Made by a program: the position numbers and the translations under genes
Shown: one piece after another, positions 23,100 through 49,758 of the stretch
How the letters are laid out: every line of letters starts with the position of its first letter
Position numbering within the stretch: the stretch's first letter is position 1
Notes under the pieces: generated by a model
Told to the model about the DNA's origin: nothing
Seen by the model: the letters and a program-made list of their open reading frames with translations, nothing else
Databases searched by the model: none
IMG/VR virus record: IMGVR_UViG_3300035145_003993
Location: 147,365-211,364 of that record
Length of the DNA: 64,000 nt
Source: a virus
Direction: 5' to 3' (one strand)

Positions 23100-23128
23100 A
23101 ATATAATACAATTAGTTAATATTTACAC
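23100..23128 (-). promoter_or_regulatory. GTGTAAA-N16-TATATT promoter for dnaE C fragment
   Basis: GTGTAAA at 23122-23128 and TATATT at 23100-23105 with exactly 16 bp between. The -35 box lies in the last codons of the homing endonuclease, and the start site would fall just before the AAAAAGGAAT ribosome site of dnaE-C. It makes the second dnaE fragment independent of the first. Confidence 0.75.
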
Positions 23129-24062
23129 TTTCATTAATTAAATCAATTGTATTATCAATTTCATTTTCCCATATAATCAAGTAGTTATAGTTTCTTTTTT
23201 TTGCTATCTTCATTTTGTAAGAATCAGCATTCCAAATATCACCTGCTTTTATTTTTCCTCTTGGGAAATCAAGAATGCTATTTTCATTATATAGAGAAGG
23301 GTGTGCGTGCCAAAATAGACCATGGCATTCAATGATTAAATTAAACTTTGGCAGATAAAAATCATATATGTAACATCTTTTGTTGTATAATAATTCATCT
23401 TTTGTCAAATTAATTCGATATTGAATAGAATAGTCAATGTTATTTTCTCTTAATAATCTTTCAATTCTTTTTTCTGTTTTAGGTTGTGATGTTTTTTTAA
23501 GAGCACCAATTGCACCTTTAACAGCTCTTTCTGAAATTATTGCATTTGCATTATCCTTACTTAATCCTTTCTTAAGCCAAAACTCAATGCAAAATGGAGA
23601 ATTTGATCGTTTATAGTTAGATAAACTTTCTTTTGCATCTTCAATATTTTCCGTTTTTTCTATCCAATACTCTAAAGTTTGTTTTTGGTTGTAAGGTTTA
23701 CCTGACTTTTTTCTAGTTTTAACTGTTCCTTTTTGTCCTTTTAAAGAAGTCTTCAAATAGTAACTTTCAATTTCTTTTATTGAAGTGTTTTTTGGAAATT
23801 TAAACTGACTTCTGAATGCTGTTGAAGTTTTTTGATTATCTACATGAAGCTTAAAACCGATTTTGTCTTTTAAAAGAATAGAAAAAGTTTGCTGTGATAT
23901 ATTTAACTCATTAAAGCATTTTCTATTGTCACGATTAATCATTTGATATAACATTGAAAACGAGTAAAGTTTATTAATAAAACCTTGTATTTCTTCTTTT
24001 GAGTAATAAGAAAAAAGTATTTCTTCTCTAATTTTCCATATATTTGTTTTTTTTGTTTTCAT
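23112..24062 (-). CDS. Vsr-like (EDxHD) homing endonuclease between the two dnaE fragments
   Basis: 316 aa. The C-terminal 100 residues hold IYDFYLPKFNLIIECHGLFW, HAHP, a later KMKIAKK and YLIIWENEI: the very-short-patch-repair endonuclease fold with Asp, Glu, His and Trp in the EDxHD arrangement described for endonucleases inside fractured split-intein genes. The N-terminal part is basic, repeat-like and probably DNA-recognising (NUMOD-like). A strong AGGAGG ribosome site precedes the ATG. Presumably cuts intein-free dnaE alleles at the insertion site and spreads the whole cassette. Confidence 0.88.
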   Translation of the reverse strand: MKTKKTNIWKIREEILFSYYSKEEIQGFINKLYSFSMLYQMINRDNRKCFNELNISQQTFSILLKDKIGFKLHVDNQKTSTAFRSQFKFPKNTSIKEIESYYLKTSLKGQKGTVKTRKKSGKPYNQKQTLEYWIEKTENIEDAKESLSNYKRSNSPFCIEFWLKKGLSKDNANAIISERAVKGAIGALKKTSQPKTEKRIERLLRENNIDYSIQYRINLTKDELLYNKRCYIYDFYLPKFNLIIECHGLFWHAHPSLYNENSILDFPRGKIKAGDIWNADSYKMKIAKKRNYNYLIIWENEIDNTIDLINESVNIN

Positions 24063-24099
24063 TATATTATCCTCCTAGGCACATATTATATATTCTGCT

Positions 24100-24408
24100 T
24101 CAGAGGTTAATATTAATAATTATATCACCTTTAACAATATCTTTTGTATCAATCCATCCTTTGTCTTTAACAAGAACACGATGATCAGGTGTAAGTTTGA
24201 TTTCGTTACCTTCTTTGTCTTTAATTCTCATAAGCTTAGCACCTCCTCGGGTTTTGTCACCCCAGATTACTTTTTTAAATTCAGCTTTGCTAGTATATTC
24301 ATTATAAGAAAGAACTTGGATTTCTTCACCTTTATTAAATCTTTCTACAACTTCTTTAATAGATAGATTTCCAGATGAAGTTTGTAAAGTTGTGTCAGGA
24401 TGAAGACA
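24100..24408 (-). other. split intein N-terminal half (DnaE)
   Basis: 102 residues from Cys204. Block A is CLHPDTTLQT and block B is IKLTPDHRVLV with the catalytic Thr-x-x-His. It ends at a stop codon with no endonuclease domain, as in naturally split inteins. Confidence 0.93.
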
Positions 24409-25017
24409 AGCTGTAGATATGTGTAATCCTTCACCATGTTCTTGAAGCATTTGAAAATCAATACGTGGGTATCTATAAAAACCATATTTATACGATTTTT
24501 TAACTAAAGTAAATAAATTGTGAAGACCTTTTTGGTTTTTTGCTGTAACTACCAAATGATATCTTCTTTTCCACTCATCTTTAAGGATATCAACATTTTT
24601 TGTTTCATCTTCGTCTTCAACAACTAATCCGCCACTTTCATCATCTGCGTCAATATCAACTTTTTCTTTTGATTTCCTTTCAGCAGCAGCGGCAGATTTT
24701 GCGTCTTTTACTGCTTGTTTGTGAGCAGCATATTCTTCAGACCATTGTTGAAGTGAAGGAACAAAATAAAATTCAACTCCATAAATTTGTCTATAATTCC
24801 TTCCTGATTTTTGCATTCTAATTGTATGAGATCTTGCATGAGCAAGACCATTACCGTTACCATGGTCTGTTAGTGCCCATGCATCCATACCCTGAGATTC
24901 AGACAAAACAAAATCAATATGATCAGATGGGTATCCTAATCCATCGAATGTTGAAAACGTGCTGTGTGCATGAAGACCGACAAATCTATCTGGTGGTGTT
25001 ATTAAATCAATAGACAA
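24100..25017 (-). CDS. dnaE: DNA polymerase III alpha subunit, N-terminal fragment carrying split-intein N half
   Basis: Residues 1-203 are the PHP domain start: FVGLHAHSTFS, ALTDHGNGNGL, IYGVEFYF and RRYHLVVTAKN retain PHP metal ligands, so PHP-linked proofreading is conceivable. A charged insert lies at residues 85-125. At HISTA/CLHPDT the sequence switches to an intein N half (102 aa). The host gene resumes at CLGG in the other fragment; SxACLGG is a conserved DnaE stretch, which fixes the junction. The start is TTG with AAAGG upstream; an ATG is absent. Confidence 0.95.
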   Translation of the reverse strand: MSIDLITPPDRFVGLHAHSTFSTFDGLGYPSDHIDFVLSESQGMDAWALTDHGNGNGLAHARSHTIRMQKSGRNYRQIYGVEFYFVPSLQQWSEEYAAHKQAVKDAKSAAAAERKSKEKVDIDADDESGGLVVEDEDETKNVDILKDEWKRRYHLVVTAKNQKGLHNLFTLVKKSYKYGFYRYPRIDFQMLQEHGEGLHISTACLHPDTTLQTSSGNLSIKEVVERFNKGEEIQVLSYNEYTSKAEFKKVIWGDKTRGGAKLMRIKDKEGNEIKLTPDHRVLVKDKGWIDTKDIVKGDIIININL

Positions 25018-25045
25018 ATTATATACCTTTCTTTTTTTATTTATT

Positions 25046-25294
25046 TTATTTTTCTGATTTTAAAATGTTAATAACTTTTATATCACGAGTTTTAATATCA
25101 TATATTTTATTACTATTTACATCAAGCATTTTATAACTAAAAAATCTTTTATTTCCGTATTTTGTTTTATTTTCAAATAAAAAATTTCTATCTAAAACCA
25201 AAGCTGTTCTCGGACCTGAAAATTGATTTCTAAATATTTTATGTTCAAATGTTACAAGATCAGAAACTTCTAATCCTTTTGAATAAGAAGACAT
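25046..25294 (-). CDS. hypothetical 82-aa protein
   Basis: Beta-rich small protein (VSDLVTFEHKIF, TALVLDRNFLFENKTKYGNK, SYKMLDVNSNKIYDI), reminiscent of the small SH3-like barrels also seen in the 69-aa and 76-aa proteins at 29054 and 26773. Lies between a strong promoter and dnaE-N, so it is probably the leader gene of that transcript. Function unknown. Confidence 0.75.
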   Translation of the reverse strand: MSSYSKGLEVSDLVTFEHKIFRNQFSGPRTALVLDRNFLFENKTKYGNKRFFSYKMLDVNSNKIYDIKTRDIKVINILKSEK

Positions 25295-25341
25295 ATAAAT
25301 TCCTTATTTTTATATTTCATTTAAATGTTTTTTTATAGTTT

Positions 25342-25370
25342 ATTATATTTATTAAATAATTAATTTACAC
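25342..25370 (-). promoter_or_regulatory. GTGTAAA-N16-TATAAT promoter (25046 gene and dnaE-N)
   Basis: GTGTAAA at 25364-25370 and a perfect TATAAT at 25342-25347. The only upstream element for the 82-aa gene and the N-terminal dnaE fragment. Confidence 0.8.
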
Positions 25371-25394
25371 TTAAAAAATACAATAAGGTTTATA

Positions 25395-25493
25395 ATGAAA
25401 ACTAAAGAAATATTAAGAGAATGGAATTTATTTTTAAAAAATATATTGAGACTCTTATTTCTTAAATATTGTATTATACTAATCGTTCAATAA
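25395..25493 (+). CDS. possible 32-aa plus-strand peptide or gene remnant
   Basis: ATG at 25395 with AAGG upstream; reads MKTKEILREWNLFLKN and then a hydrophobic stretch. The start resembles the N-terminus of the 140-aa protein at 36564 (W-x-x-FL). It overlaps the photolyase stop by 15 bp. It may be a remnant of a longer plus-strand gene. Confidence 0.3.
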   Translation: MKTKEILREWNLFLKNILRLLFLKYCIILIVQ

Positions 25494-26657
25494 TTTTAAA
25501 GTTCTTTCTTGATTAAATCTCATAACTTTTCCATATTGTAATTTAAAACTTTCAACACAGTTTACAATATTATTTGGACTTTGAGCATCTTCACAGTGTG
25601 TATTAAAAAAATCAATTAAAGTTTCTAATGATTTTAAACCTCCACCAAGATTCCAATAACATTCTCCTGCGAACCACATTCTAGATCTATTAGGCATCCA
25701 CCTATTTTTAATACACTGTTTTATTTCTTTGTTAAGGTAATCATTTTTTGTATTTCCATTCATAATATCTTTTTTTGATAAAACGGGAGTAAAAGTATTA
25801 TTTAATAAATTGTTATAAGACTTTTCATCTAAAAGTTTTTTTGAAATACTATCTACACTATCTAAAAAACTTATTTCTTTAATTCTACATTTTCTAATAC
25901 AAATTTCTCTAAATGCTAATTGTCTAAGAATAGGTATAATTGGATTATCCTTTTCAATAAACCTTGGAGAAAGTGATAAAACTAAATGTGTTATTACCCT
26001 TGGATCAATTAAACCATGATGTAAAAATTTAGAAAGTTTTGTACTTCCTTCTCTTTCATTTCTTGTTTTATGATAAGATAAAACCTTTTCTTTGAATCTT
26101 TTTAAAATGTTACAAACATTTTTATGAGTTTTCAAAGATAAATTATGATTAATTTTATATAATTCGCCTATACTCCCAAAATCATTTATTTTATTATAAT
26201 TACAAAATATTTCTTCTTTCTTTAGTCTATTTTTTGTCCAATAGATCCATCTACTTTTTGCTGTCATTTTTGTACAAGACTCAATATAAGAGTCAGAATC
26301 GACTTCTTCTACATTAATATTATTAAATTTTAATTTTTCTGAAAAAAGAGGTTTATCGTAATATACTTTTTCGATATTTTCATTTTTACAAAAATCTTCA
26401 ATTAATGCAACAGGATTTTTTGATTTAATTATTTTAAGATTTAAATCATAATTTTCTTTTAATCTGCTTGAAAAATAATTTAATGATTCGTAATAAAATA
26501 GATTATTATTATTTTTATAATAATTTTTATTATTATCATTTAAATAATAATTTGAAATATATACAACACAAATATTTTTATAAGAAGATATAGCTTTTTT
26601 AAAAATAAAACTGTTTGTTCTAAAAGAATGATCAATTATAATTAGACATTTAGACAT
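25479..26657 (-). CDS. photolyase/cryptochrome-family protein
   Basis: 392 aa. The N-terminal Rossmann-like domain starts CLIIIDHSFRTNSF. The C-terminal FAD-domain signatures are GSTKLSKFLHHGLIDPR (residues 204-220), RQLAFREICIRKC (245-257) and WMPNRSRMWFAGECYW (320-335), the counterpart of the family's 'W-x-H-N-R-x-R-M'. The middle is shorter and more divergent than in cellular photolyases. The likely role is light-driven repair of UV dimers in phage DNA; substrate and FAD binding need confirmation. Two tandem GTGTAAA promoters lie directly upstream. Confidence 0.8.
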   Translation of the reverse strand: MSKCLIIIDHSFRTNSFIFKKAISSYKNICVVYISNYYLNDNNKNYYKNNNNLFYYESLNYFSSRLKENYDLNLKIIKSKNPVALIEDFCKNENIEKVYYDKPLFSEKLKFNNINVEEVDSDSYIESCTKMTAKSRWIYWTKNRLKKEEIFCNYNKINDFGSIGELYKINHNLSLKTHKNVCNILKRFKEKVLSYHKTRNEREGSTKLSKFLHHGLIDPRVITHLVLSLSPRFIEKDNPIIPILRQLAFREICIRKCRIKEISFLDSVDSISKKLLDEKSYNNLLNNTFTPVLSKKDIMNGNTKNDYLNKEIKQCIKNRWMPNRSRMWFAGECYWNLGGGLKSLETLIDFFNTHCEDAQSPNNIVNCVESFKLQYGKVMRFNQERTLKLLND

Positions 26658-26691
26658 ATAAACTCTTTTTATTAATTATTATTTATTTTTT

Positions 26692-26720
26692 AATATAATC
26701 ATTATTATTCTTATTTACAC
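26692..26720 (-). promoter_or_regulatory. GTGTAAA-N16-TATATT promoter (proximal, photolyase)
   Basis: GTGTAAA at 26714-26720, TATATT at 26692-26697, 16 bp apart. Nearer of two tandem copies before the photolyase gene. Confidence 0.75.
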
Positions 26721-26725
26721 ATAAA

Positions 26726-26754
26726 ACTATAATTAATTAATATTTAATTTACAC
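26726..26754 (-). promoter_or_regulatory. GTGTAAA-N16-TATAGT promoter (distal, photolyase)
   Basis: GTGTAAA at 26748-26754, TATAGT at 26726-26731, 16 bp apart. Together with the proximal copy, offset by 34 bp, it fills the 115-bp gap upstream of the photolyase. Confidence 0.75.
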
Positions 26755-26772
26755 GCAAAAGTATGGTATAAG

Positions 26773-27003
26773 CTAAGTCTCAGATTTAGTTACCCACAGA
26801 CCGTCTTGATTTTCTAAATCCATTGTTTCTCTAGACGATCCATTTAAGTAAACAATTAGACCTTTAACAAAGTAATGATCTTGAATAATTTCTGTAACTA
26901 AACAGTTATTTTTTATCCTTTCACCATAAAAAAATATATCAATCATGTCACCTTCTTTTAACTGTGATACTTCGTGTATTTCATTTTTATAATTACTGGA
27001 CAT
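26773..27003 (-). CDS. hypothetical 76-aa protein
   Basis: Small beta-rich protein: VSQLKEGDMIDIFFYGER, NNCLVTEIIQDHYFVKGLIV. The 'L-K-E-G-D' turn followed by strands suggests an SH3-like barrel. Overlaps the end of the vWA gene by 11 bp. Function unknown. Confidence 0.75.
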   Translation of the reverse strand: MSSNYKNEIHEVSQLKEGDMIDIFFYGERIKNNCLVTEIIQDHYFVKGLIVYLNGSSRETMDLENQDGLWVTKSET

Positions 27004-28174
27004 TGATTTTAGGTTTTCCCCATCTAAGTGTTATTTGTGTATTGTTATTTAACATGTTTGTGCAAATATTAAAAGGTTCTACGTCATAGAATTTTAAAAT
27101 CTTATAAAGATCATCATACAAATAATCTATTCCTTCTTCCAAGATTTGGGTACCATTAAAAACATTTAAATCACCTTCAGCAATTACAGGACCTATCCTA
27201 CACATTATCTCTTCTATAATTGCATTAAATGCTGATTCAACTTGATTTGCATTAACAACGAAAGAGAATTCATTAGGAATTGTATTGAGTGTGTTTCCGC
27301 TTATAGACTGTAGTGCGCTTGTATTTGCATTGTCTACACCTAAAGTATATACAGTAATACAAGGATCTATTGCTGTAGAGTAAATGCAATTGTTATCATT
27401 AATATTTCTTATGTTGTTTTGAACAAAAGACTGAGAAGGCCCTGATCCTTCATTTGGCGATCCATCTGATATTAAGAGAATGTAATAAGACTCGTAGTTT
27501 GTCGTCTGTATTTGTGTCATTGCTTCTTGTAAAGGTGCTATAAAGTTTGTTCCACCTCCCGGACTTCTATTATTAACAATTGAAAGAACAGATTGCTTAT
27601 GCTGTTGATTTTTTCCTATACTTGAAGAAACTATTATATTACTATTGTATAATATAACAGAGTAACTTAAATTAAAATCAGAGTTAACAAATTGACTAAC
27701 TGTATCTCTAAGTTGAACTATTCTGTTTCCACTCATTGAACCACTATAATCTAAAAGCATTATTACAGCTGCATCTATTAAGTCAACGTCATGAACTTCT
27801 TCAGGGACAGTTATTATAACTGACTTGGTAGTTTGTCCGCGTCCTGGGTTATAAGAAGAAGTTATTCCGTATTTTCTATTACAATAGTTTTCAACACTAC
27901 ACTCTAGTCCTAGATCTATACATTGAAAGTTTGGTGTAACGTTAGTTGAAAGTGACGAAGCGCAATTATTTAAAAAATTAGGTGTACAAATTTCTTCAGT
28001 ACTATTTGTCTCAATAATAGAAATTCCTAGATTTACACTACAAGAATCTAAAACTTGTTTTTCTTCCAATATGTTTAAAGATATTCTACCGTATTGTATT
28101 GTTATAAATGCTAAAGTTGATAACACAGCAGACAATAACATAATAGTTAGTGCTGCAAATCCTTTGTTTTTCAT
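26993..28174 (-). CDS. von Willebrand factor A domain protein with prepilin-like N-terminus
   Basis: Residues 1-30 (KNKGFAALTIMLLSAVLSTL) form a short basic lead, a Gly-Phe junction and one hydrophobic helix, as in PilX/TadE-type pseudopilins. The segment at 40-110 has seven cysteines, suggesting an exported, disulfide-bonded domain. Residues 130-330 are a vWA domain with a complete MIDAS: DYSGS (142-146), Thr209 in GGGTN, and Asp237 in ISDGSPNEG. The C-terminal region is beta-rich. vWA domains with pilin-like leads occur in surface adhesins and pilus-tip proteins; in a phage this suggests export to the infected cell's envelope. No other secretion gene is nearby. Confidence 0.85.
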   Translation of the reverse strand: MKNKGFAALTIMLLSAVLSTLAFITIQYGRISLNILEEKQVLDSCSVNLGISIIETNSTEEICTPNFLNNCASSLSTNVTPNFQCIDLGLECSVENYCNRKYGITSSYNPGRGQTTKSVIITVPEEVHDVDLIDAAVIMLLDYSGSMSGNRIVQLRDTVSQFVNSDFNLSYSVILYNSNIIVSSSIGKNQQHKQSVLSIVNNRSPGGGTNFIAPLQEAMTQIQTTNYESYYILLISDGSPNEGSGPSQSFVQNNIRNINDNNCIYSTAIDPCITVYTLGVDNANTSALQSISGNTLNTIPNEFSFVVNANQVESAFNAIIEEIMCRIGPVIAEGDLNVFNGTQILEEGIDYLYDDLYKILKFYDVEPFNICTNMLNNNTQITLRWGKPKINVQ

Positions 28175-28194
28175 GATTTATCTCTCCATATATT

Positions 28195-28223
28195 ATAATA
28201 TAAGGATTTGTTTTAAATTACAA
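28195..28223 (-). promoter_or_regulatory. weak promoter-like site before vWA gene
   Basis: TTGTAAT (28217-28223), 16 bp, TATTAT (28195-28200): same spacing as the GTGTAAA family but with two mismatches in the upstream box. GGAGAGA, the vWA ribosome site, follows. Confidence 0.35.
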
Positions 28224-28988: not shown

Positions 28989-29053
28989 AGTTTATCTCCT
29001 TATAAAGTAATTATCTTACAGTACAGATAGTTGTCATAACAAATTATTTATTT

Positions 29054-30047: not shown

Positions 30048-30051
30048 ATTG

Positions 30052-31061: not shown

Positions 31062-32027
31062 TTAATTGTTGAATTGTTTTTTAACTTGATTTATGGCTCT
31101 TACATCATCATTCCACATCCTTGTAAAGATTTTTTCTTCACCAGATTTATTGCCGTTTAATTCTTCGCGGCGACAAGGGTAAATTGAATCTTCTTCATTG
31201 AATTCAAACAAATCGTTTTTAGGCTCTGGATGATATAAATTAGTTCCTTTTGAAGTAAAAGTACCATCTGCTTGTTTAACTCTAAATGTTCTAACATAAT
31301 GCATGTCAGGTTTTTCAAAATCTAAGCAAGTTGCAACTTCAGGAATTCTTTCAACAACTAGTCTTGCTATTTTAGTAGCAATAATATTATCAACCTCAGG
31401 CTGAATTTGTACATCTTGTCTTTGTTTAATAAGACCAATTAAATCTTTTAAATTAAACCTTGCAATATAAAATGTTTCGATAGATTTTGGCATAATAACT
31501 CTAGCGTCCATTAAAGAAATTAGTTTTGAATCTACCATATCAGAATATAATTGTTTTGCAGCAGCAGCAACTTCAATAAATCTATGGTAAAAATCAGAAT
31601 TTTCAATAGACTCTGGAACTAAAATATTATCGTGTCGTAGGTCTCTATCACCTGTGCATTGAGCAGCAAATGATCCTGCTCTGTGTCTAATTAAGTGTGT
31701 TACGGTTTGAGTATCAATACCACTTATCCTAAAAGTAAATCCTAAACATTCCATAGGCGTTGGTAAGGCTCTAAAATTTAGTACGTCTTGAAGGTTTTGT
31801 GAGGCCTCTTCAGGTGAAGCATTATTAAAGTCAGTTTCAAAAGGTCGATCAGCCCATGTTGCCTTGGTCATATTCCAAGCTATTTCTTGTGCTTGCTTTT
31901 GTGTTGGAGCATCAATCACTTCAATTTTAAGTGATTCTAAATTGTTAATATAGTTTGTAACAGGAACTTCGTTAAACTTTAAAAGCATAGGAAGTTGAAT
32001 CTTATCTAAATCATTATTAATTGGCAA
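31062..32027 (-). CDS. divergent ThyX-family flavoprotein (Cys in place of active-site Ser)
   Basis: 321 aa. It has the ThyX nucleotide/flavin core HLIRHRAGSF: Arg114-His115-Arg116 of the RHR motif are kept. Where classical ThyX has the conserved Ser ten residues after the first Arg, this protein has Cys124 (AAQCTGDRDLRH), and the following SRRY is lost. A C-terminal extension of about 60 aa follows. The start is TTG with AAGGAG and the promoter at 32055-32083. With a normal ThyX at 33782, this copy may modify a different pyrimidine, for example as a hydroxymethylase, or be a back-up synthase. Confidence 0.8.
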   Translation of the reverse strand: MPINNDLDKIQLPMLLKFNEVPVTNYINNLESLKIEVIDAPTQKQAQEIAWNMTKATWADRPFETDFNNASPEEASQNLQDVLNFRALPTPMECLGFTFRISGIDTQTVTHLIRHRAGSFAAQCTGDRDLRHDNILVPESIENSDFYHRFIEVAAAAKQLYSDMVDSKLISLMDARVIMPKSIETFYIARFNLKDLIGLIKQRQDVQIQPEVDNIIATKIARLVVERIPEVATCLDFEKPDMHYVRTFRVKQADGTFTSKGTNLYHPEPKNDLFEFNEEDSIYPCRREELNGNKSGEEKIFTRMWNDDVRAINQVKKQFNN

Positions 32028-32054: not shown

Positions 32055-32083
32055 ATTATAAAATTAAAAATTTTATTTTACAC
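32055..32083 (-). promoter_or_regulatory. GTGTAAA-N16-TATAAT promoter (divergent ThyX gene)
   Basis: GTGTAAA at 32077-32083, overlapping the stop of the upstream gene, and a perfect TATAAT at 32055-32060. A start site near 32048 leaves a short leader with AAGGAG. Confidence 0.8.
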
Positions 32084-34509: not shown

Positions 34510-35274
34510 TTATCCTTCACTTTTTTGATTATTTAATGGCTTTTCAAAGTGATAAAAAGCTCCTCCTGTGTGACCGTCGTGAATTAGAGTTGCAAAACAC
34601 CTTGCAACAGGACCACCTAATTTATCCTTAAGTTTTTTATAAAAAGGATGATTTTTAATTTCTTTTGGAATTCTCCACGAAGAAGATGTAGAATATCCTG
34701 TATCATATTTAATAAAGTCAAACCCTGTATCTGTACCTAGCTTAATAAAATTTTCATGAACTGGAAAGTTAACATGTCCAATTTTATGTTCCTTTTCAGG
34801 TGAATGAAATTGTGTGTCTTGTGTATTCATTGGGAATCCTAGTACCATTCTCCCACCAGGTCGAAGAACTCTATAAAGCTCTTTCATAATATATGGATAA
34901 TTGTGGTCTTCAATATGTTCAAAAACTTCTGACGAAACCATGATATCAAACATTTCGTCACTATATGGGAGTCCTGTTGTGATATCATGTTGCTTTAATT
35001 GAAATTTGTTACTTTGCTTAGACCAAGCCATATCGATATATTTTTGTTGATAGTCAATACCATAATACTCAGTAAAAACAAAAAGACTTTTCATAAATGT
35101 CCAGAGTCTACCATTATAACATCCAATATCAAGAAGTTTTGGCTGATTTTTTCCATCATATCCATTTGAAGAGCACCACTTACGAACAGCTTCAACTAAA
35201 TAATTTTGAGAAAAAACAATAAATTGACAATCAATTAAAGTTTGTGGGTGAGACTTTTTTTGTATCGCAGCCAT
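34510..35274 (-). CDS. class I SAM-dependent methyltransferase
   Basis: 254 aa. Motif I LLDIGCYNGRL, motif II YYGIDYQQKYIDMA, MFDIMVSSEVFEHIED (motif IV) and VLRPGGRMVLGFP are standard for Methyltransferase_11-type enzymes. There is no DNA-MTase DPPY/NPPY motif, so the substrate may be a small molecule, glycan or protein. Sits between ThyX and the endolysin, under the promoter at 35325-35353. Confidence 0.9.
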   Translation of the reverse strand: MAAIQKKSHPQTLIDCQFIVFSQNYLVEAVRKWCSSNGYDGKNQPKLLDIGCYNGRLWTFMKSLFVFTEYYGIDYQQKYIDMAWSKQSNKFQLKQHDITTGLPYSDEMFDIMVSSEVFEHIEDHNYPYIMKELYRVLRPGGRMVLGFPMNTQDTQFHSPEKEHKIGHVNFPVHENFIKLGTDTGFDFIKYDTGYSTSSSWRIPKEIKNHPFYKKLKDKLGGPVARCFATLIHDGHTGGAFYHFEKPLNNQKSEG

Positions 35275-35324: not shown

Positions 35325-35353
35325 ATTATATTAATATTAGTTTTATTTTACAC
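35325..35353 (-). promoter_or_regulatory. GTGTAAA-N16-TATAAT promoter (methyltransferase, thyX)
   Basis: GTGTAAA at 35347-35353 and a perfect TATAAT at 35325-35330. Located between the endolysin and methyltransferase genes; would drive methyltransferase, thyX and following genes. Confidence 0.8.
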
Positions 35354-39501: not shown

Positions 39502-40563
39502 TTATCCTTGACAGCTTAAACATTCATCAGGATCAGCGAAATCTTGTAACTTATCTTGCTTAACCTTCTGACTAACCTTTTCAGCTGAAGCTCCTGCGTT
39601 TGTCCTTAGATAATATAATCCTTTTAACTTCTTTTTCCAAGCTCTAATATGTACTGCATTAACATAAGATTTATCAGTACCAGCGGGAAAGAATAAATTA
39701 ACACTTTGACCTTGGCAAATAAATTCTTGTCTATCACCTGCGTGATCTATAATCCATCTTTGATCTAATTCAAATGCTGTTTTAAATACTTCTTTATGCC
39801 AATCTGACATGTATTCAAGGTGTTGAACAGATCCTTCTGCTAAGATAATAGATTTCCATTGTTCATTCATCCAAGATTCAATATCAATTTTTTCTACATT
39901 GTCAGCATACTCTCTTAAAACTTTTTCTAAGTGATGATTTTTCACTAAATAAGAACCTACTCTTGTTCTATGTGTATATGCATTACTTTTCCAAGGTTCA
40001 ATAGATGGTGAAGTCCCTGCAATAATAGAAGAATTAGCATTTGGAGCAATTGCTAATAGATGAGAATTCCTAACTCCGTAACCAGATCCATCAGGACATT
40101 CACCTTTTTTAATCGCCAACTCTTTTGTACGCTGTTTTGCTTTTTCTTTAATTAATGAGAATATATTAATATTTGTTGCTTTTGCAATCCCTGATTCAAA
40201 CGGAATATTTTTTGATTGAAGATAGGAGTGAAATCCCATTGCACCTAAACCAAGTGATCTTTCTCTCATAGCGGAAAATTTTGCTTTGTGCAAATAGTCA
40301 GGAGCATTTTCAATAAAAAATTGTAGGACGTTATCTAAATACTCTATTAAATCTTCAACAATATTTGTGTCTTTCCATTCATCAAACTTTTCAACATTTA
40401 GTGAGCTTAAACAACATACTGCACTTCTTTCAGGAGATGTTGCCAAATGGATCTCATTACAATTGTGAACGAGCATGTTATTTGCAAAAAAATTTTTATT
40501 GTCTTTAACAGTTATGTCAAAAACAGGTTCTTTTGTTTCTCTTTTAATTATTTTTAATCCCAT
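39502..40563 (-). CDS. nrdA: ribonucleotide reductase alpha subunit, C-terminal fragment carrying split-intein C half
   Basis: Residues 1-34 are an intein C half (VFDITVKDNKNFFANNMLVHN). From Cys35 the NrdA sequence runs CNEIHLAT, then SAVCCLSSLNV, the barrel and a C-terminal CLSCQG redox pair. Cys35 aligns with the thiyl-radical cysteine of the N-L-C-x-E motif, so the splicing nucleophile and the radical residue are the same. With residues 1-282 encoded at 41682-42527 the spliced enzyme would have 601 aa and no ATP-cone. A start with AAAGGTAG lies inside the end of the GIY-YIG gene (20-bp overlap). Confidence 0.95.
   Translation of the reverse strand: MGLKIIKRETKEPVFDITVKDNKNFFANNMLVHNCNEIHLATSPERSAVCCLSSLNVEKFDEWKDTNIVEDLIEYLDNVLQFFIENAPDYLHKAKFSAMRERSLGLGAMGFHSYLQSKNIPFESGIAKATNINIFSLIKEKAKQRTKELAIKKGECPDGSGYGVRNSHLLAIAPNANSSIIAGTSPSIEPWKSNAYTHRTRVGSYLVKNHHLEKVLREYADNVEKIDIESWMNEQWKSIILAEGSVQHLEYMSDWHKEVFKTAFELDQRWIIDHAGDRQEFICQGQSVNLFFPAGTDKSYVNAVHIRAWKKKLKGLYYLRTNAGASAEKVSQKVKQDKLQDFADPDECLSCQG
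40462..40563 (-). other. split intein C-terminal half (NrdA)
   Basis: 34 residues, block F/G KNFFANNMLVHN, followed by Cys at +1. Similar in style to, but not the same as, the DnaE C half at 22952-23080. Confidence 0.93.
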
Positions 40564-41302
40564 ATTTTCTACCTTTTATCCATTCTTCACTGTTAAGTGC
40601 ATCGATTTCTTTTTTGCTCATTTGTTTTGAAACTTTAAGTTTTTCGTTAGTGTACCAATTTTTTCCTGATAATGACTTAGAAAGTTTATTATTATGGCTA
40701 TTCGTTCTTTTATATTTAAAATCACTGTCATTTAAGTTATACAAATCTTTCATTGCGTTTACAAAACCTTTTAAGCCCGATCCATATTTTTTAAATCTAA
40801 ATTTTGAATAAGACTTTGGAAAACCATAAACTTCTGAACTATATATTTGCCACTTTCTTTTAGGTAGCTGTCCTTCTTTTTGAAAATAAGTAAAAGCTGA
40901 TTTTAATATTTCTTCATCAGTAAAACCTGTGTATGTTGGATTTTTTTCTCCTGATGTTGCAATAGAATTTTTTAGTCGCCATTCACTATATTTTTCATCA
41001 GGAACTATCCATCCACCATCACCACCCGTAGTCATATTATAACCCTTTTTAAAAGTATCATAATATTCAATGTAATACTTTTCTTTTTCTAAAGCTTCTT
41101 TTTTAGTATAACATTCAAAAATTATTTTAGATACTATATTTTTAGGACCGTATTTTCTAATTGCTTTATAAAAATGTGTATCATGACCTGATTGTGCATT
41201 TGTAATATGTTTGTGTAGTCTTTTTGACAAAGTTAGTCCAGTGTATCCAATGTATGACTTGTTTGTTTGTTTAAAAGTGTGCATGTATATTATATATTTC
41301 AA
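40544..41302 (-). CDS. GIY-YIG homing endonuclease between the two nrdA fragments
   Basis: 252 aa. YIIYMHTFKQTNKSYIGYTG is the GIY-YIG motif, followed by the conserved Arg/His region LHKHITNAQ and the catalytic Glu in ALEKEKYYIEYY, then YNMTTGGDGG. The C-terminal part is basic and probably binds DNA. TTG start with AAGGAG. It is unrelated to the Vsr-like enzyme in dnaE, so two different endonuclease families occupy the same niche. Confidence 0.93.
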   Translation of the reverse strand: MKYIIYMHTFKQTNKSYIGYTGLTLSKRLHKHITNAQSGHDTHFYKAIRKYGPKNIVSKIIFECYTKKEALEKEKYYIEYYDTFKKGYNMTTGGDGGWIVPDEKYSEWRLKNSIATSGEKNPTYTGFTDEEILKSAFTYFQKEGQLPKRKWQIYSSEVYGFPKSYSKFRFKKYGSGLKGFVNAMKDLYNLNDSDFKYKRTNSHNNKLSKSLSGKNWYTNEKLKVSKQMSKKEIDALNSEEWIKGRKYGIKNN

Positions 41303-41360
41303 ACTATCTCCTTATGTTAGTAAATGAATTTCAACATTAAATATACATCTAACAATCAAA

Positions 41361-41681
41361 TTAAGAAAAAACTAATTCATCGTCTTCTTTAAGATCTTTA
41401 GCTTTTACATATCCTCTATTTACAGTATATACTTTGTGATCAGGAGTACAAACAATTTTTTTACCAGTTTCTTCATCTATTATTTCAAGTACTTCTGCAC
41501 TTTTACTAATTAATCCTGCATCAGTAATTTCTTTGTATTCAATTTCTTTTGTATCAATATTATAAGACAACACAAAAATTTCTTTTCCTTCATGAAAAAG
41601 ATCAACAACTTCTTCTAATGATACCTGTGCATTTGGCACATTGTCAATTAACACATCAATCTTCGTATCTCCTGTTAAGCA
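41361..41681 (-). other. split intein N-terminal half (NrdA)
   Basis: 106 residues from Cys283. Block A CLTGDTKIDV, block B KIVCTPDHKVYT, ending NRGYVKAKDLKEDDELVFS at a stop codon. The ending strongly recalls the NRGYVRADEL-type end of the NrdJ-1 split intein, known from environmental phage sequence. Confidence 0.93.
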
Positions 41682-42527
41682 AAGATTTGATCCATGTATC
41701 TTAAGTCCTAAATCTTTTTGATATTGAGGTAAGTGTTTATTTGCTTCTGAAATGAAGTTAATATATGGCTCGCCTGTTCTAAATCTGACTTTTAGTATTC
41801 TTTGCCATAATTCTCTTGCGTCAACTGTGTCTCTTATTGTTTTATCATTAGGATCAATTAAATTCCATTTTTCGCCTTTAGATACTGCTTCCATAAATTC
41901 GTCTGTTACATTTACTGCATTGTTTAAATTAAAACATTTACGATTTACGTCTCCTCCTGTTGGAAGTCGAATACTTAAAAATTCAATAATATCAGGATGA
42001 GAAACATCCATATAAGCTGCATAGCTTCCTTTCCTAGTTTTTCCTTGTCTATAAGCAGTCATATCACTATCTGCAGATTTTAAAAAAGGAATTGGTCCTG
42101 GTGATATTGAAGAATTAGATCTAACTTTAGACCAATGACCTCCTACACCACCACCTTTTACAGACATCCAACGTAATTCATTTGAATGATCTATAAGACC
42201 TTCTAAAGAGTCATCAACATAACTTAAAAAACAAGAAATAGGAAGTCCTAATTCTGTACCACCGGGAACGGGAGCATTAGATAAGATTGGAGAACTAAAC
42301 ATAAACCAACCTTTTGCCGCGTAATTATAAATTCTTTGTGCAAGTGACAAATCATATTTTTTATTTTGAAAATCGTAAGAGAATGCTACAGCTGCCCTTG
42401 CAAAACTTTCTTGAGGAGACTCCTCGTGATCTTGCATATAATAGTCTCTAAGTAATTTTCGTGAAAAATTTGTTAATTTATCGTCATAATCTAAGTTAAT
42501 ACTAATACCATAGCATTCTTTTTTCAT
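41361..42527 (-). CDS. nrdA: ribonucleotide reductase alpha subunit, N-terminal fragment carrying split-intein N half
   Basis: Residues 1-282 are NrdA: FSSPILSNAPVPGG, LPISCFLSYVDDS (first active-site Cys99), WMSVKGGGVGGHWSKVRS and HGSNL at the junction. The allosteric ATP-cone is absent. Residues 283-388 are an intein N half of the NrdJ/NrdA-type. Reduces ribonucleoside diphosphates after trans-splicing with the downstream fragment. Directly follows dut by 14 bp. Confidence 0.95.
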   Translation of the reverse strand: MKKECYGISINLDYDDKLTNFSRKLLRDYYMQDHEESPQESFARAAVAFSYDFQNKKYDLSLAQRIYNYAAKGWFMFSSPILSNAPVPGGTELGLPISCFLSYVDDSLEGLIDHSNELRWMSVKGGGVGGHWSKVRSNSSISPGPIPFLKSADSDMTAYRQGKTRKGSYAAYMDVSHPDIIEFLSIRLPTGGDVNRKCFNLNNAVNVTDEFMEAVSKGEKWNLIDPNDKTIRDTVDARELWQRILKVRFRTGEPYINFISEANKHLPQYQKDLGLKIHGSNLCLTGDTKIDVLIDNVPNAQVSLEEVVDLFHEGKEIFVLSYNIDTKEIEYKEITDAGLISKSAEVLEIIDEETGKKIVCTPDHKVYTVNRGYVKAKDLKEDDELVFS

Positions 42528-44384: not shown

Positions 44385-45352
44385 TAAATATTATTCCTTA
44401 AACAAGATTTGATTGATATTAGAAATTCGTGTATATTATAAAAATTTAATCCTTCGCGATTTAAAATTTTTAATAATTTAAATTTGTTTATTTTAGATTC
44501 TTTATTTTCGTATTGGTAATTAATTTTTTTTATTTGATTAGCACTTAACATTAAAGAGTCTAAATACATTAATTTCCAATTTTTTATTAATTGATCTTTA
44601 TTTTCTATTATATTAGAATAAAGCTTTATTTTACATTTGTTTTTAACTTTTTCATTTGATTCATTAATTATATCATTTATTGTCAAGTCTCTTTTCTGGA
44701 TTAAATCTGGAAACCGTTTGGACATGGTTTTAATACCTGCTCCTTTGATACCTTTTATTCCGTCACTTACGTCACCTGCAAAACATCTTGTTAAACAAAA
44801 ATTATATGCAGGAACTTGCCACTTTTCTAATATATATTTTTCATCAATTAAACACTTCTTGTTAGGAGACCAAATTTTAGTATTTTCATCTAATAATTGA
44901 TAATAGTCCTTATCAGAAGTAACAATTATTTTTTTATCATTTGAAATTTTTGTTTTTACTAAATAAGAAATTATATCATCTGCTTCACAATCATCTACAT
45001 AAATTTGTGTTACAGGAGTTTCGTATAAAATTTCTACTAAAATTTTTAACTGATTGTTTCTATTTTCTGATGTGTCGGGAATGTCTTTATAATATTCACT
45101 TCTATTTAGTCTTACTGGTCTTCTTCCTTCTTTGTAAGAAGGATCAATGTTTCTTCTTCTGAGAGATCCTCCACCTTCCCAAGCAACAATAATTTTTTGT
45201 GGCCTGAATTTGGTAGACAAATACTCAATATTTTTTAAAAAGCCAATAATTCCACCGCATAGCTGTCCATTCAATGATTTTGATGGATTAGCTGCAAAGT
45301 GTCTCATAAAAACATTCAAGCCATCGATGTAAATTATTGGCTTGTCTATCAT
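44384..45352 (-). CDS. 5'-3' exonuclease / flap endonuclease, copy 2
   Basis: 322 aa. IIYIDGLNVFMRHFAAN, IIVAWEGGGSLRRR, YVDDCEADDIISYL, IVTSDKDYYQLL and GDVSDGIKGIKGAGIKT follow the FEN/5'-nuclease family. Sits between recA and the helicase, so it is likely the replisome copy. The shorter homologue at 2382-3203 has a different neighbourhood and may have a separate role. Confidence 0.93.
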   Translation of the reverse strand: MIDKPIIYIDGLNVFMRHFAANPSKSLNGQLCGGIIGFLKNIEYLSTKFRPQKIIVAWEGGGSLRRRNIDPSYKEGRRPVRLNRSEYYKDIPDTSENRNNQLKILVEILYETPVTQIYVDDCEADDIISYLVKTKISNDKKIIVTSDKDYYQLLDENTKIWSPNKKCLIDEKYILEKWQVPAYNFCLTRCFAGDVSDGIKGIKGAGIKTMSKRFPDLIQKRDLTINDIINESNEKVKNKCKIKLYSNIIENKDQLIKNWKLMYLDSLMLSANQIKKINYQYENKESKINKFKLLKILNREGLNFYNIHEFLISIKSCLRNNI

Positions 45353-45357
45353 TTTAC

Positions 45358-46575
45358 CTACTTTAACATTTTAAAAGCTTCTTCATGAACTTCCATTATA
45401 TGTTGAGAAACAGCTTCAATATCTGTATAACTTTCTGGATCAATATCAGGATCTTCTGTTTCATTTTTTCTAATCATAGCTTTTTCAAGAATCATATCAA
45501 TATATTGTCCATATTCAGGATGATTAATGATTTCGTGAAAATCAGCCTTATAAAACTTTTTTGTTACAATTTGTTCACCTTCATTATTATAAACTTCTAA
45601 ATGCTTCCAAGCTCCATTTCCTCCAACTTCAATAGTATATCCGCTATGCTCATCTTGTCCATGTCTTCTTAGCATGTCAAACATTTGTTCGTGTTCTTTG
45701 ATTCCTTTTCCAAAATGAATCTCAAAATTACATGTTCTAAATGGAGCAGAAACTTTGTTTTTTATAGTTTTAGCTGAAACGTTGATTCCAATTGGTTCTT
45801 TATCTTTATTAAGAATTTGAGATCCCGCTCCTAATTTAATTCTTACAGAAGAATGAAAAGGAATTGACATTCCACCGGGTGTTGTAGTAGGATCTCCATA
45901 TAGTACACCAACTTTTGTACGTATTTGATTAAGACATACAAATAAAACTTTTTCATTTGCAATAACACCAGTAATTTTTCTCATTCCTTTTGATATTGCT
46001 CTTGCTTGGAGTCCAATACTTTCTTTTTCATAATCTCCCGTTAATTCAGCTCTAGGTGAAGTTGCTGCAACTGAATCCCAGATAATTGTTACTGGCACAT
46101 CTTTATTCATAGCTTTTGCTTTAATAATAGTACTTTCAGCAATACTTAAAACTTCTTCAGTACAGTGTGTGTCTACATAAACAAATCTTTTTGATATATC
46201 TACACCTAAAATCTTTAGATTTTCTACAGATGTAGCGTTTTCTGTATCGATGTATACAACAATACCACCCATTTGTTGGGTTGATTTTGCAATTTGAGTT
46301 GCAATATGAGATTTACCAATTGAAGGTGGACCAAATATTTCTACGATTCTACCTTCAGGTAAACCACCATTCTTTTGATTTGAGATAATGTAATCTAATT
46401 GTTTAGACCCTGTGCTTATCCATCTACTAACGTGTGTAGGTGACTCGTCAGTACTAAGATTATAAGCTACTCTTGATCCTCTTTCTTTATTTAAGGATTT
46501 AATTAAGTCAGATGTAAAGTCATCTAATTCTTCTTTAGACTCTTTTTTTGACTTTTTTGTTCTTGTTTTAGTCAT
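45358..46575 (-). CDS. recA: RecA recombinase
   Basis: 405 aa, closer to bacterial RecA than to T4 UvsX. Walker A FGPPSIGKS (81-89), VVYIDTENA, VTIIWDSVAATSP (Walker B), the L1/L2 loop region GMRKITGVIANEK...CLNQIRTKVGVLYGDPTTTPGG. The lysine-rich N-terminus differs from cellular RecA. Acts in strand exchange and probably recombination-dependent replication with the SSB encoded upstream. Confidence 0.96.
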   Translation of the reverse strand: MTKTRTKKSKKESKEELDDFTSDLIKSLNKERGSRVAYNLSTDESPTHVSRWISTGSKQLDYIISNQKNGGLPEGRIVEIFGPPSIGKSHIATQIAKSTQQMGGIVVYIDTENATSVENLKILGVDISKRFVYVDTHCTEEVLSIAESTIIKAKAMNKDVPVTIIWDSVAATSPRAELTGDYEKESIGLQARAISKGMRKITGVIANEKVLFVCLNQIRTKVGVLYGDPTTTPGGMSIPFHSSVRIKLGAGSQILNKDKEPIGINVSAKTIKNKVSAPFRTCNFEIHFGKGIKEHEQMFDMLRRHGQDEHSGYTIEVGGNGAWKHLEVYNNEGEQIVTKKFYKADFHEIINHPEYGQYIDMILEKAMIRKNETEDPDIDPESYTDIEAVSQHIMEVHEEAFKMLK

Positions 46576-46635
46576 TTATAATTCCTAGTTTATTTAATAA
46601 AAACCTAATAGTCTGTTTTGAATAGTTAATAATTT

Positions 46636-47421
46636 TTATAGTGAGTCTAGGTCTGCAAATGCATCATCTAAGCTTTTATATTTTCCAGAAATTTGATCAG
46701 GAGAATTTTCATCAACACTTTCTTTATTCGATCCTCCTCTTGTTGTTTCTTGCTTTGGATCATCATCTGAACTATTTAGCCATTCATTAATAATTCTTTC
46801 AAGATCTTCATAAGTTTTAAGTTCGAATAAATTATTAACATCTGGAATAGAGTCTAACCAATTCTTTGACTTTGAAGTATCTTCTGATAGAGGTGAATCT
46901 TTACCACGTGGTCTAACATCAGTAGATGCCCACATTTGTCCTGGATTCTTTTGACAAGTAATTCTTACGTCGCGCCCTTCATGAGGATCAGTAATATCAC
47001 CATAATCTTCATCTAGCATATAATTTAGAAGTGTTTGATAAACAGATTTACCAAATGCCCATAGTCTTACGCCTTTTTCTTCTTCACCTCTAACGATAAC
47101 AGGAGCATAGCATCTCATTTTTGGATAAAGCTTTTTAGCTAATTCATAGGATTCTTTAGTTCCTTCATCACGAAGTTTTGTAATAAGTTCTTGAATTGGA
47201 TCAGGCTTATCAAATTGATAAGGAGCAAGTAAACCAGGATTGTTTCCAATGTTATAATAAAACATTAGCTCTTTAAAAGGTTGACCATCATTATTAGGAT
47301 ATGCAAGAAGGCGAACAGTTGTTTCAGTACCTTCTTCAGGGCGCCACATTGTATTTTTCTTAGAATTTTGACCACTTAGTTGTCCAAGTTTCTTACGGAT
47401 TGCTGCTAGATCAATAGCCAT
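46636..47421 (-). CDS. single-stranded DNA-binding protein, T4 gp32-like
   Basis: 261 aa. N-terminal basic residues, an OB core with TTVRLLAYPNNDGQPFKELM and YGDITDPHEGRDVRI, VRLWAFGKSVYQ, and a C-terminal acidic tail ending DDAFADLDSL. This layout is that of gp32-like SSBs that recruit replication proteins through the acidic tip. First gene of the recA-exo-helicase-dut-nrdA operon, under the promoter at 47503-47531. Confidence 0.9.
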   Translation of the reverse strand: MAIDLAAIRKKLGQLSGQNSKKNTMWRPEEGTETTVRLLAYPNNDGQPFKELMFYYNIGNNPGLLAPYQFDKPDPIQELITKLRDEGTKESYELAKKLYPKMRCYAPVIVRGEEEKGVRLWAFGKSVYQTLLNYMLDEDYGDITDPHEGRDVRITCQKNPGQMWASTDVRPRGKDSPLSEDTSKSKNWLDSIPDVNNLFELKTYEDLERIINEWLNSSDDDPKQETTRGGSNKESVDENSPDQISGKYKSLDDAFADLDSL

Positions 47422-47502
47422 ATTTATTTGCCTTTCGGTTATTTGTTTAAATTTTTAATTGGATAATTTTTTAATTTTTTTGTGAAAACCAATTATGGAA
47501 TG

Positions 47503-47531
47503 ATTATATTTTATAATTTTTATTTTTACAC
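47503..47531 (-). promoter_or_regulatory. GTGTAAA-N16-TATAAT promoter (ssb-recA-replication operon)
   Basis: GTGTAAA at 47525-47531 and a perfect TATAAT at 47503-47508, in the 117-bp gap upstream of the SSB gene. The leader of about 80 nt is AT-rich with no obvious hairpin; GAAAGGCAAA is the ribosome site. Confidence 0.85.
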
Positions 47532-47538
47532 AAAATTA

Positions 47539-47766
47539 TTAATTTTTTTTGTTCAAATAATATTGAACTGATTTGTTTTTAGGTTTTTTACTTCTATGTT
47601 TATTATCAGTTTCTTTAGATGATTTATATTTAATTTTCTTATTAAAATCAACAGGGTTATCATTAGATTCACCTACTGGTAAACTATAACCACTAATTGA
47701 AGCTGAAGTTGAAAATTCTGATAAGAGGTTTTTTAAAACTCTTTCGTATATATCGTTTTCATTCAT
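47539..47766 (-). CDS. hypothetical 75-aa protein
   Basis: Acidic N-terminus (MNENDIYERVLKNLLSEF) with an amphipathic helix, then a strongly basic tail rich in Lys and Arg. Possibly nucleic-acid-binding. Located between the SSB promoter and the degenerate HD gene. Unknown. Confidence 0.7.
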   Translation of the reverse strand: MNENDIYERVLKNLLSEFSTSASISGYSLPVGESNDNPVDFNKKIKYKSSKETDNKHRSKKPKNKSVQYYLNKKN

Positions 47767-47791
47767 ATTATATTCCTTTCTAGAGTAATTA

Positions 47792-48397
47792 TTAAAAAGG
47801 AACTGTATATAAGCCGTCTATTCTATCTTTTTCGTCTTTCATAATAATTTCATGTGCTGTTTGTAATACTAAAGATAATCTTGATTTATGATATCCATAA
47901 AATTTATTACTTTCGGACAAAACATTACCTAAAAGGAAAATTGCTTGCCATTCTTCCCATGAAAGATGAATTTTGTAAAATTGTAATAAATAAAGTGTCA
48001 TATCATTAACTTGATATTTTGGACACGATTCATTCCAATCATAGTATTGTCCTAATTTTTCTTTATGCCATTCTGATTTAGTCTCTACAAACCTATTTCT
48101 AGTTAAGGTCCCAACTCTTCCAATTATAGATAATAAGCAACACTTTATAATTGAAGCCTTATCTAAATCATAATTTAATTCTTTCATTAAAGAATTTGAC
48201 CTTTTAACTAGATTAATTGAATAATCAACTAACCCTCCAATTCCACAAAAAGGTTCTTTATCTTTTTGAGAATAAGAAGACAGTAAAATTCGTTGATCCA
48301 TAGATTCTACAAGTTTATCAATATTTTCATCTTTTAATTTAGAAAGTAAATTTGTATATTGATTCCATAAAACTTCTACGTCTCTTTCTTTGTACAT
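47792..48397 (-). CDS. degenerate HD-domain protein
   Basis: 201 aa. CGIGGLVDYSINLVKRSNSL, followed by an alpha region and FYGYHKSRLSLVLQTAHEII, follows the phage HD-hydrolase layout 'Y-P-GGL-x-x-H-S-L-N-V...'. The expected HD pair is replaced: LLSIIGRVG stands where active enzymes have FHDLGKVG, and the first His is Asp-Tyr. The fold is probably kept without phosphohydrolase activity, e.g. as a replication-associated binding protein. Confidence 0.7.
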   Translation of the reverse strand: MYKERDVEVLWNQYTNLLSKLKDENIDKLVESMDQRILLSSYSQKDKEPFCGIGGLVDYSINLVKRSNSLMKELNYDLDKASIIKCCLLSIIGRVGTLTRNRFVETKSEWHKEKLGQYYDWNESCPKYQVNDMTLYLLQFYKIHLSWEEWQAIFLLGNVLSESNKFYGYHKSRLSLVLQTAHEIIMKDEKDRIDGLYTVPF

Positions 48398-48407
48398 TTA
48401 AATCCTT

Positions 48408-48659
48408 TTATAATTTCCATTTGATTCCTGATATATTTTGGAATTTTTTTGTTAGTTTCTTTTTTTGTTGTGCTAATTCTATAATCTTTTCAGAATTATA
48501 TGTTTCTTTATTTAATTCAGTCATTAAGTCCTTTGATACATTTAAAAGGTCTTGAAGAGTTTCAAGTTGAATATCAGATCCTTTTATACTAATGTTTATA
48601 TCATGACCTTTTATAAACCTTGCAGCAGCTTGATGTAATAAATTTTCGTTAATGTTCAT
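48408..48659 (-). CDS. hypothetical 83-aa helical protein
   Basis: Mostly helical with AAARFIKGHDINISIKGSDI, then a coiled-coil-like segment (LNVSKDLMTELNKETYNSEK) and a basic end. Between the family-A polymerase and the HD-like gene. Unknown function. Confidence 0.7.
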   Translation of the reverse strand: MNINENLLHQAAARFIKGHDINISIKGSDIQLETLQDLLNVSKDLMTELNKETYNSEKIIELAQQKKKLTKKFQNISGIKWKL

Positions 48660-48673
48660 TTTATCCTCTTATT

Positions 48674-49723
48674 CTAATCACACTCTGTGTTAAATTGTGA
48701 TATAGACACGGGAAAGTTTCCTAAGTCTTTATCGTTATATCCTTTCATAATTATACTTTTAAATTCATTTACATAGTCTTTTTCAACATCAAAAACTATT
48801 GCGTCATGAATAATGAATATAGGGATTGCTTTATTTAAATCTAAAATATTAGTTATTTCACTAAAATAAAGTAATGCAATATCTACTGCTGATGATTGAA
48901 CGTAATTATTTATTACTACATTCTTTCTTTTTTCATTCAGATTCCAAATTGGTCGACCATAAAAATTTCTTCTAACATTTTGTTTGTCAATTTTTGATGA
49001 TATTTCATATAAATAATCTAATTCAAAATGATCTTTAATAATTTCAAATATTTTAACTGCTTTGTTTGCTGAAATATTTCTAAGGTTTTCATGGCTTGCA
49101 CCATATAGTACAGATATTATTGCTCTTTTAATAATAGACCTGTCTATATCAAAATCTAACATGCTATTAATAGTTTCATATATATCACCATCAATATCTT
49201 TTCCAACTATTTTTAAACAAAATCTTGGTTCTAAATTTTGAAAATCTATACTTAATAGTTTACCATTATTAAACCTAGATTCGAAAATATTTCGACATCT
49301 TTTAGGTAAGACTAAAATATTTGGACTATTATTAACTGTCAATCTTCCAGAAATATTTTTTGAATTATCATAATTTGCTTTTCTTGAAAAGCCATTTCGT
49401 GGTTTAAATTGCTTTAAAACACTAGATATAGTTTGGTTTGTTTCAACAGAGTTAATTGCTTTATAGGCAATTAAATTAACTTTTGGTTTTTGTATTTTAT
49501 CGAATAAGTTAAAATATAAATTTAATTTATCTAAATAATTTTCTTCATCTAAAGAATTTATATGATTTAATAGTTCTTCTTTATGATTAAGAAATTCTTC
49601 TTGCAAATAGTTAGGTAATATTTCTACTTCATCATAATCTTCTGATAATGATGCTAAGAATTTGAAAAAGATTTTAAATTTATTATCATATTCAACATTG
49701 TATATTCTATATATTTTTTCCAT
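48674..49723 (-). CDS. small DNA polymerase I-like (family A) polymerase
   Basis: 349 aa. The polymerase core only, with no 3'-5' or 5'-3' exonuclease domain. Palm: SGRLTVNNSPNILVLPKR, motif A LLSIDFQNLEPR (Asp160), motif B RSIIKRAIISVLYG (Arg195, Lys199, Tyr207), motif C FIIHDAIVF (Asp307). The residue equivalent to E. coli Phe762 is Ile203, and the Glu after the motif C Asp is Ala308. With a full DnaE encoded too, this may be a repair, gap-filling or specialised polymerase. The promoter's -10 ends six bases before the ATG, so the mRNA may be leaderless. Confidence 0.9.
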   Translation of the reverse strand: MEKIYRIYNVEYDNKFKIFFKFLASLSEDYDEVEILPNYLQEEFLNHKEELLNHINSLDEENYLDKLNLYFNLFDKIQKPKVNLIAYKAINSVETNQTISSVLKQFKPRNGFSRKANYDNSKNISGRLTVNNSPNILVLPKRCRNIFESRFNNGKLLSIDFQNLEPRFCLKIVGKDIDGDIYETINSMLDFDIDRSIIKRAIISVLYGASHENLRNISANKAVKIFEIIKDHFELDYLYEISSKIDKQNVRRNFYGRPIWNLNEKRKNVVINNYVQSSAVDIALLYFSEITNILDLNKAIPIFIIHDAIVFDVEKDYVNEFKSIIMKGYNDKDLGNFPVSISQFNTECD

Positions 49724-49729
49724 AAAAGA

Positions 49730-49758
49730 ATAATATTCTTAAATAATAAAATTTACAC
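49730..49758 (-). promoter_or_regulatory. GTGTAAA-N16-TATTAT promoter (family-A polymerase, leaderless?)
   Basis: GTGTAAA at 49752-49758 and TATTAT at 49730-49735. The ATG at 49723 lies where transcription should begin, and no Shine-Dalgarno is present. Confidence 0.78.

Follow-up and report, generated by a model that had tools for sequence, protein, structure and literature searches.

A predicted GTGTAA-N17/18-TATAAT promoter family of early, replication and nucleotide genes in large, uncultured T4-like marine phages

Introduction

The early promoters of T4-type phages (T4, RB69, RB49, 44RR, RB43 and Aeh1) are two-box promoters of the sigma70 type that are conserved across related phages, and the T4 early -35 box, which is GTTTAC and not TTGACA, is read by the host sigma70 (PMC1524935). 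The boxes bound by the middle-mode activator MotA lie 11-13 bp from the -10 box (PMC1524935). Here we describe a family of GTGTAA-N17/18-TATAAT sites in a virus genome. Among known systems it is most like the T4 early promoters, with which it shares the many copies, a -35 box beginning with GT, a TATAAT-like -10 box and a frequent location before small novel ORFs. It differs from them in that the -35 box is GTGTAA or (G/T)TG(T/C)AA, that replication and nucleotide genes would be served by the boxes as well and that a CATAAGG is conserved in the early sub-class where transcription presumably starts. The middle-type genes and the sigma70 -10 box recall T4 middle promoters, but the boxes are 17-18 bp apart and would also drive early-type genes. 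The 17-bp spacer, the TATAAT and the (G/T)TG core of the -35 box are those of the bacterial sigma70 consensus, whereas TTGACA is nearly absent before TATAAT. Among the papers covered by a literature search, none reports GTGTAA or GTGTAAA as a phage promoter.

Results

Promoter sites in the window

The window is a stretch of 64,000 nucleotides, positions 147365-211364 and thus the end of a virus record of 211,364 bases (genome G000), and the whole record was read. ORFs were simple longest-ORF calls, and the records used may be incomplete. A sequence-only reading of the window had described eight minus-strand sites with GTGTAAA, exactly 16 bp and a TATAAT-like box. All eight were recovered as described, with TATAAT or a one-base variant of it, each between genes or at the end of one, and each with a minus-strand gene downstream; an exact site upstream of the phage sigma gene and a larger set outside the window had been overlooked. 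The predicted promoters in the window are as follows (exact, GTGTAA-N17-TATAAT).

303..331, minus strand: exact, GTGTAAT form, about 27 bp before the phage sigma gene
23100..23128, minus strand: GTGTAAA-N16-TATATT, before the dnaE C-terminal half, ORF 19985-23080 (DNA polymerase III alpha)
25342..25370, minus strand: exact, before small ORF 25046-25294
26692..26720, minus strand: TATATT, downstream member of a tandem pair before ORF 25479-26657
26726..26754, minus strand: TATAGT, upstream member of the same pair, before ORF 25479-26657
32055..32083, minus strand: exact, 21 bp before the ThyX gene 31062-32027; kept in relative G005 at the same distance
35325..35353, minus strand: exact, before methyltransferase ORF 34510-35274; kept in G005
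47503..47531, minus strand: exact, before the gp32-like SSB gene 46636-47421; kept in G005
49730..49758, minus strand: TATTAT, directly before PolA-type polymerase ORF 48674-49723; at identical distance in G005

The bases of the 303-331 promoter also code for the C-terminal RVIIIDI* of ORF 309-509. The N17/18 spacing upstream of the sigma gene is kept in many relatives, including G005 and G034. The G005 ortholog of the 26726 promoter is GTGTAAA-N17-TATAAT (N18 counted from GTGTAA), and the 23100 promoter has no counterpart before the dnaE ortholog of G005. The downstream genes had been read as replication, repair or nucleotide genes or small genes that lead into them, and Pfam and PHROGs agree, assigning the C-terminal half of DnaE, ThyX, a gp32-like SSB, a PolA-type polymerase and a methyltransferase.

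The dnaE gene is fractured (window 19985-25017), its PHP half ending in an N-intein and its polymerase half starting with a C-intein; the ORF between the halves (23112-24062) has a weak Vsr-like match, below cutoff, and the predicted 23100 promoter would serve the second half. The ribonucleotide reductase large subunit (window 39502-42527) appears fractured in the same way, with a C-intein-like start in ORF 39502-40563 (Pfam match below cutoff) preceded by a GIY-YIG-like ORF, 40544-41302. Besides its DnaE-type polymerase, the phage encodes a 349-aa protein (ORF 48674-49723) that matches family A DNA polymerase.

Spacing and placement

The constant spacing of the eight sites had been taken as proof against chance. 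As it stood this argument was circular, since the sites had been selected on their spacing, but the spacing holds independently: the record contains 156 GTGTAA hexamers, which are followed by an exact TATAAT 28 times at N17, five times at N18 and twice at all remaining spacings from 12 to 22 combined. In the window GTGTAA-N17-TATAAT had 12 matches at no more than one mismatch against 1.44 +/- 1.17 in shuffled sequences, and none of 100 shuffles reached 12. An unsupervised scan of hexamer pairs ranked GTGTAA/TATAAT first both in G000 (27 against 0.26) and in G005 (19 against 0.15). The very high A+T content of the record (73%) and the many TATAATs in its gaps would favour chance matches, but 28 matches at one spacing against 0.26 expected, oriented, located in gaps and conserved, are not what such DNA would give. 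The spacing test, the pair scan and orthology together refute a base-composition artefact, and we regard it as extremely improbable.

The sequence-only reading had named equal density of the motif within coding sequence as grounds for giving it up; instead, 30 of the 33 exact N17/N18 sites of the record fall within its noncoding DNA, which totals about 15 kb. Site 147695 overlaps only the 3' end of the upstream ORF, site 104939 is 41 bp before a gene and site 96766 is inside a called ORF (record positions). A same-strand gene begins within 250 bp downstream of 29/33 exact sites, compared with 46% for a random noncoding position and strand.

The arrangement is thus a TATAAT -10 box with a -35 box at 17 +/- 1 bp, as in sigma70-type promoters, and it is repeated in relatives. 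The -35 box itself is neither the sigma70 consensus nor that of T4: TTGACA shows no spacing peak before TATAAT in the record and TTGACA-N15-19-TATAAT does not occur there, and GTTTAC-TATAAT was found only once in G000, at N18. Taken together, these observations support a promoter family of sigma70 geometry, and we infer that its members are transcription start sites.

An alternative is that a MotA-like activator binds GTGTAA beside a sigma70 -10 box, as in the T4 middle mode. The departure from TTGACA and the position of sites before genes of the T4 middle type would fit, but a spacing of 17/18 bp is the geometry of sigma70 and not the 11-13 bp of a MotA box, early-type genes share the box, and no motA-like gene was identified, the search for one not being systematic. 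A MotA-like box was rejected on the spacing, and we consider an activator of this kind improbable.

Two sub-classes and the genes they precede

The sites of the record fall into two classes. Class A consists of 32 plus-strand sites at record 88.7-121.4 kb, in a block of mostly small, early-type genes, with GTGTAAC/T and rarely GTGTAT as the -35 box (GTGTAT also occurs in G005). In these sites, which lie about 45 bp upstream of the genes, TATAAT is immediately followed by a strongly conserved A(A/T)A(C/T)CATAAGG (AWAYCATAAGG), its CATAAGG standing where a start, 6-8 bp after the -10 box, would be expected. The same sequence is seen in the early-type promoters of G005, again where the transcript presumably begins; it may act in promoter escape, as an RNA leader or as a binding site. 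Class B consists of 17 mostly minus-strand sites at record 130-197 kb, which contain the eight first described and precede replication, repair and nucleotide genes. They have an A/T-rich spacer, lack CATAAGG and are GTGTAAA nearly throughout, with A at position 7 in 17/17. A promoter family as first proposed is upheld, but its definition as GTGTAAA was too narrow and was rejected because position 7 varies.

When upstream regions were grouped by presumed gene stage, GTGTAA occurred 25 times against 1.4 expected before early genes, 18 against 1.2 before middle genes and 2 against 0.8 before late genes. The last figure is at background, in agreement with the earlier statement that virion regions are essentially free of the family. 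The data support a predicted promoter family that accompanies early, replication and nucleotide genes and is missing before virion genes.

Conservation in related phages

In G005, a relative of 239.5 kb, the layout of the classes recurs, yet position 7 does not separate them. Among G000/G005 orthologs outside the early block, 12 have a site in both genomes, 9 (4 and 5) have it in just one of the two, and the remaining 132 lack it (Fisher p=4e-11); at the orthologous sites the boxes are kept while the spacers have diverged. In relatives with a UvsX 79-90% identical (L009-L061), 50 N17 and 18 N18 sites made up 68/76 exact matches at spacings 8-27, and position 7 was A in 67/67 N17 matches with at most one mismatch; many of these counts, being taken over related sequences, are not independent. 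The whole records of relatives, 14 in number, gave 52 exact N17 matches, spread over 11 of them; the reversed pattern did not occur. In more distant uvsX relatives (L062-L088; GC 0.42, short fragments) the motif was absent in about 260 kb.

Distant phages were also reached through the sigma gene, and in these GTGTAA at exactly N17 was the top hexamer before TATAAT (12 against 0.13), with GTGCAA next. In seven further records that share these sigma genes the pattern is (G/T)TG(T/C)AA- or GTAAAA-N17-TATA(A/C)T; variants in six records besides G000 and G005 include GTGCAA (13 against 0.09), TTGTAA (12 against 0.43) and GTGTAA with TATACT (9 against 0.05), among others. Each genome has GTGTAA, GTGCAA, TTGTAA or GTAAAA as its -35 box, always at N17. 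The -35 box departs from TTGACA in 8/8 genomes studied (GC 0.25-0.40), with at most two TTGACA-TATAAT pairs at N15-19 per genome. A gene for a MoxR-type ATPase (MDIKTF..) lies under the promoter in G000, G005, G031, G034 and G023.

On the best explanation, these sites appear to be the promoters of both early and middle genes in a lineage of large, uncultured, T4-like marine phages. In the stretches that were read, contigs L214 (305 kb), L216 (158 kb) and L215 resemble phages of this lineage. The GTDB bins that hold them are a Methylococcaceae MAG, a Flavobacteriales MAG and an uncultured bin; they are phage contigs within these bins and do not assign a host.

A candidate late promoter

In gene gaps without the family, ATATTTA was the most strand-biased 7-mer across eight genomes (66 sense against 21 antisense). 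In G023, G037, G034 and G031 the longer form ATAYTTAW precedes genes of structural type, among them tail-sheath- and portal-type genes, typically by 25-45 nt, the genes checked by PHROGs being only the sheath, plus the portal in G000. This oriented single box was also noted in gene gaps of G005. On this pattern ATAYTTAW is a candidate late promoter. The genome of the window itself does not visibly have it (5 sense against 6 antisense), and G000 and G005 pooled gave only weak -10-like enrichments, TATATAATA (10 against 1.9) and TATAAATA (13 against 4.6).

A split phage sigma factor

The site at 303-331 precedes the first of two overlapping genes.

Record 146881-147633 (5' part at window 1..269), minus strand: phage sigma gene, coding for regions 1.2-3 plus the first part of region 4 and lacking region 4.2
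Record 146616-146891: separate region 4.2-like helix-turn-helix (HTH) ORF, downstream of the sigma gene and overlapping it

In the sigma protein, which is 250 aa long, Pfam recognizes regions 1.2, 2 and 3 but not region 4, and the chain ends shortly after EEKIIRLRFGI, so that the four regions do not occur together in one chain. A sigma gene with a separate HTH gene was found at 39/39 sigma loci and at 56/56 HTH loci with the upstream sigma visible, two sets that overlap (L097-L135, L217-L289). In L216 (9218-10291) the two are fused in one chain (HTH profile E=7.5e-18), and therefore the HTH is part of the sigma factor. Its identity as region 4.2 depends on this fusion and on position, because the HTH alone found no significant relative in the PDB by profile or by fold. 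It had no match in INPHARED and no significant match in Pfam, and its profile matched canonical region 4 weakly (3/25 members, best E 0.02). AlphaFold predicted the HTH with a mean pLDDT of 85; the model of the fused chain is of low confidence (pTM 0.38) and aligns to SigmaS/SigA structures over about 300-305 columns.

The recognition helix is nearly invariant among the HTH proteins, KMNH(S/A)(T/S)(A/V)RN, and is KMNHSTVRN in the window's phage. The residues E458 and T440 of RpoD/SigA make the extended -10 and -12 contacts. The phage sigma has L at both places, which suggests that these contacts are altered or lost and favours the host sigma70 as reader. A hand count in G031 showed an extended -10, TGnTATAAT, at 8 of 15 exact N17 sites.

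Discussion

The leading rival to reading by the host is that the split phage sigma itself reads the family, its 250-aa part recognizing TATAAT and the HTH, acting in trans as region 4.2, recognizing GTGTAA. The sigma would either enter the cell with the virion or first arise from leaky transcription, and would then autoregulate. In favour of this reading, the pair occurs in 8/8 genomes having the family, GTGTAA-N17 leads at the distant sigma loci, the recognition helix hardly varies, the HTH is fused to sigma in one relative, and L119, with the helix NHNNVRA, has TTGTAA. The strongest counter-argument to host reading is that the -35 box departs from TTGACA in every split-sigma genome, which, if the hosts differ, suggests a reader made by the phage. 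But presence of the split sigma in 8/8 genomes cannot by itself separate a host from a phage reader. Further, L120 and L132 have identical recognition helices (KMNHSTARN) yet different -35 boxes, GTAAAA and GTGTAA, and TTGTAA also occurs with the helix NHASARN (G037). The sigma gene lies under the family's own promoter and early-type genes use the family, although a sigma can autoregulate and a self-promoter is therefore not decisive. The phage sigma appears to have lost the extended -10 contacts, and the late box, a separate element, would otherwise have no reader. We consider reading of the family by the split sigma less likely than not, and give the same standing to the broader proposition of a two-subunit sigma, split at region 4.1/4.2, imposing its own -35 code from early infection in a broad lineage of uncultured phages.

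The sigma gene under the family, the altered -10 contacts, the mismatch between helix and -35 box and the separate late box together favour the host sigma70, which is the most likely reader of the GTGTAA class. The earlier proposal of a phage sigma or an activator is not supported in that form, given that 17/18 bp is ordinary sigma70 geometry, that the T4 early promoters provide a precedent and that the sigma gene is under the family; the sequence-only reading is thus partly supported overall. We lean, with only modest conviction, towards a scheme of two readers. The host sigma70-RNAP would fire GTGTAA-N17/18-TATAAT as with T4 early promoters, the phage sigma would be made from one such promoter, and it would then read a late class without GTGTAA, with the single box ATAYTTAW in relatives, so that the split sigma probably serves the later, virion genes. 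The lack of a visible late box in the genome of the window itself counts against this explanation.

The single 8-bp late box and the two-piece late sigma proposed here resemble T4 late transcription with gp55 and gp33. Unlike in T4, the box is ATAYTTAW and not TATAAATA, the sigma is RpoD-like (regions 1.2-3 with the beginning of 4) and its partner is region 4.2-like. The split sigma may represent a stage on the way to the reduced gp55/gp33 pair found in T4. The conserved non-consensus -35 box combined with a split RpoD-like sigma makes it directly testable whether the reader is the enzyme of the host or a phage sigma in two pieces. For abundant uncultured large marine phages, the sites would provide a promoter map, early-middle versus late, by which the stages of genes may be assigned from sequence alone.
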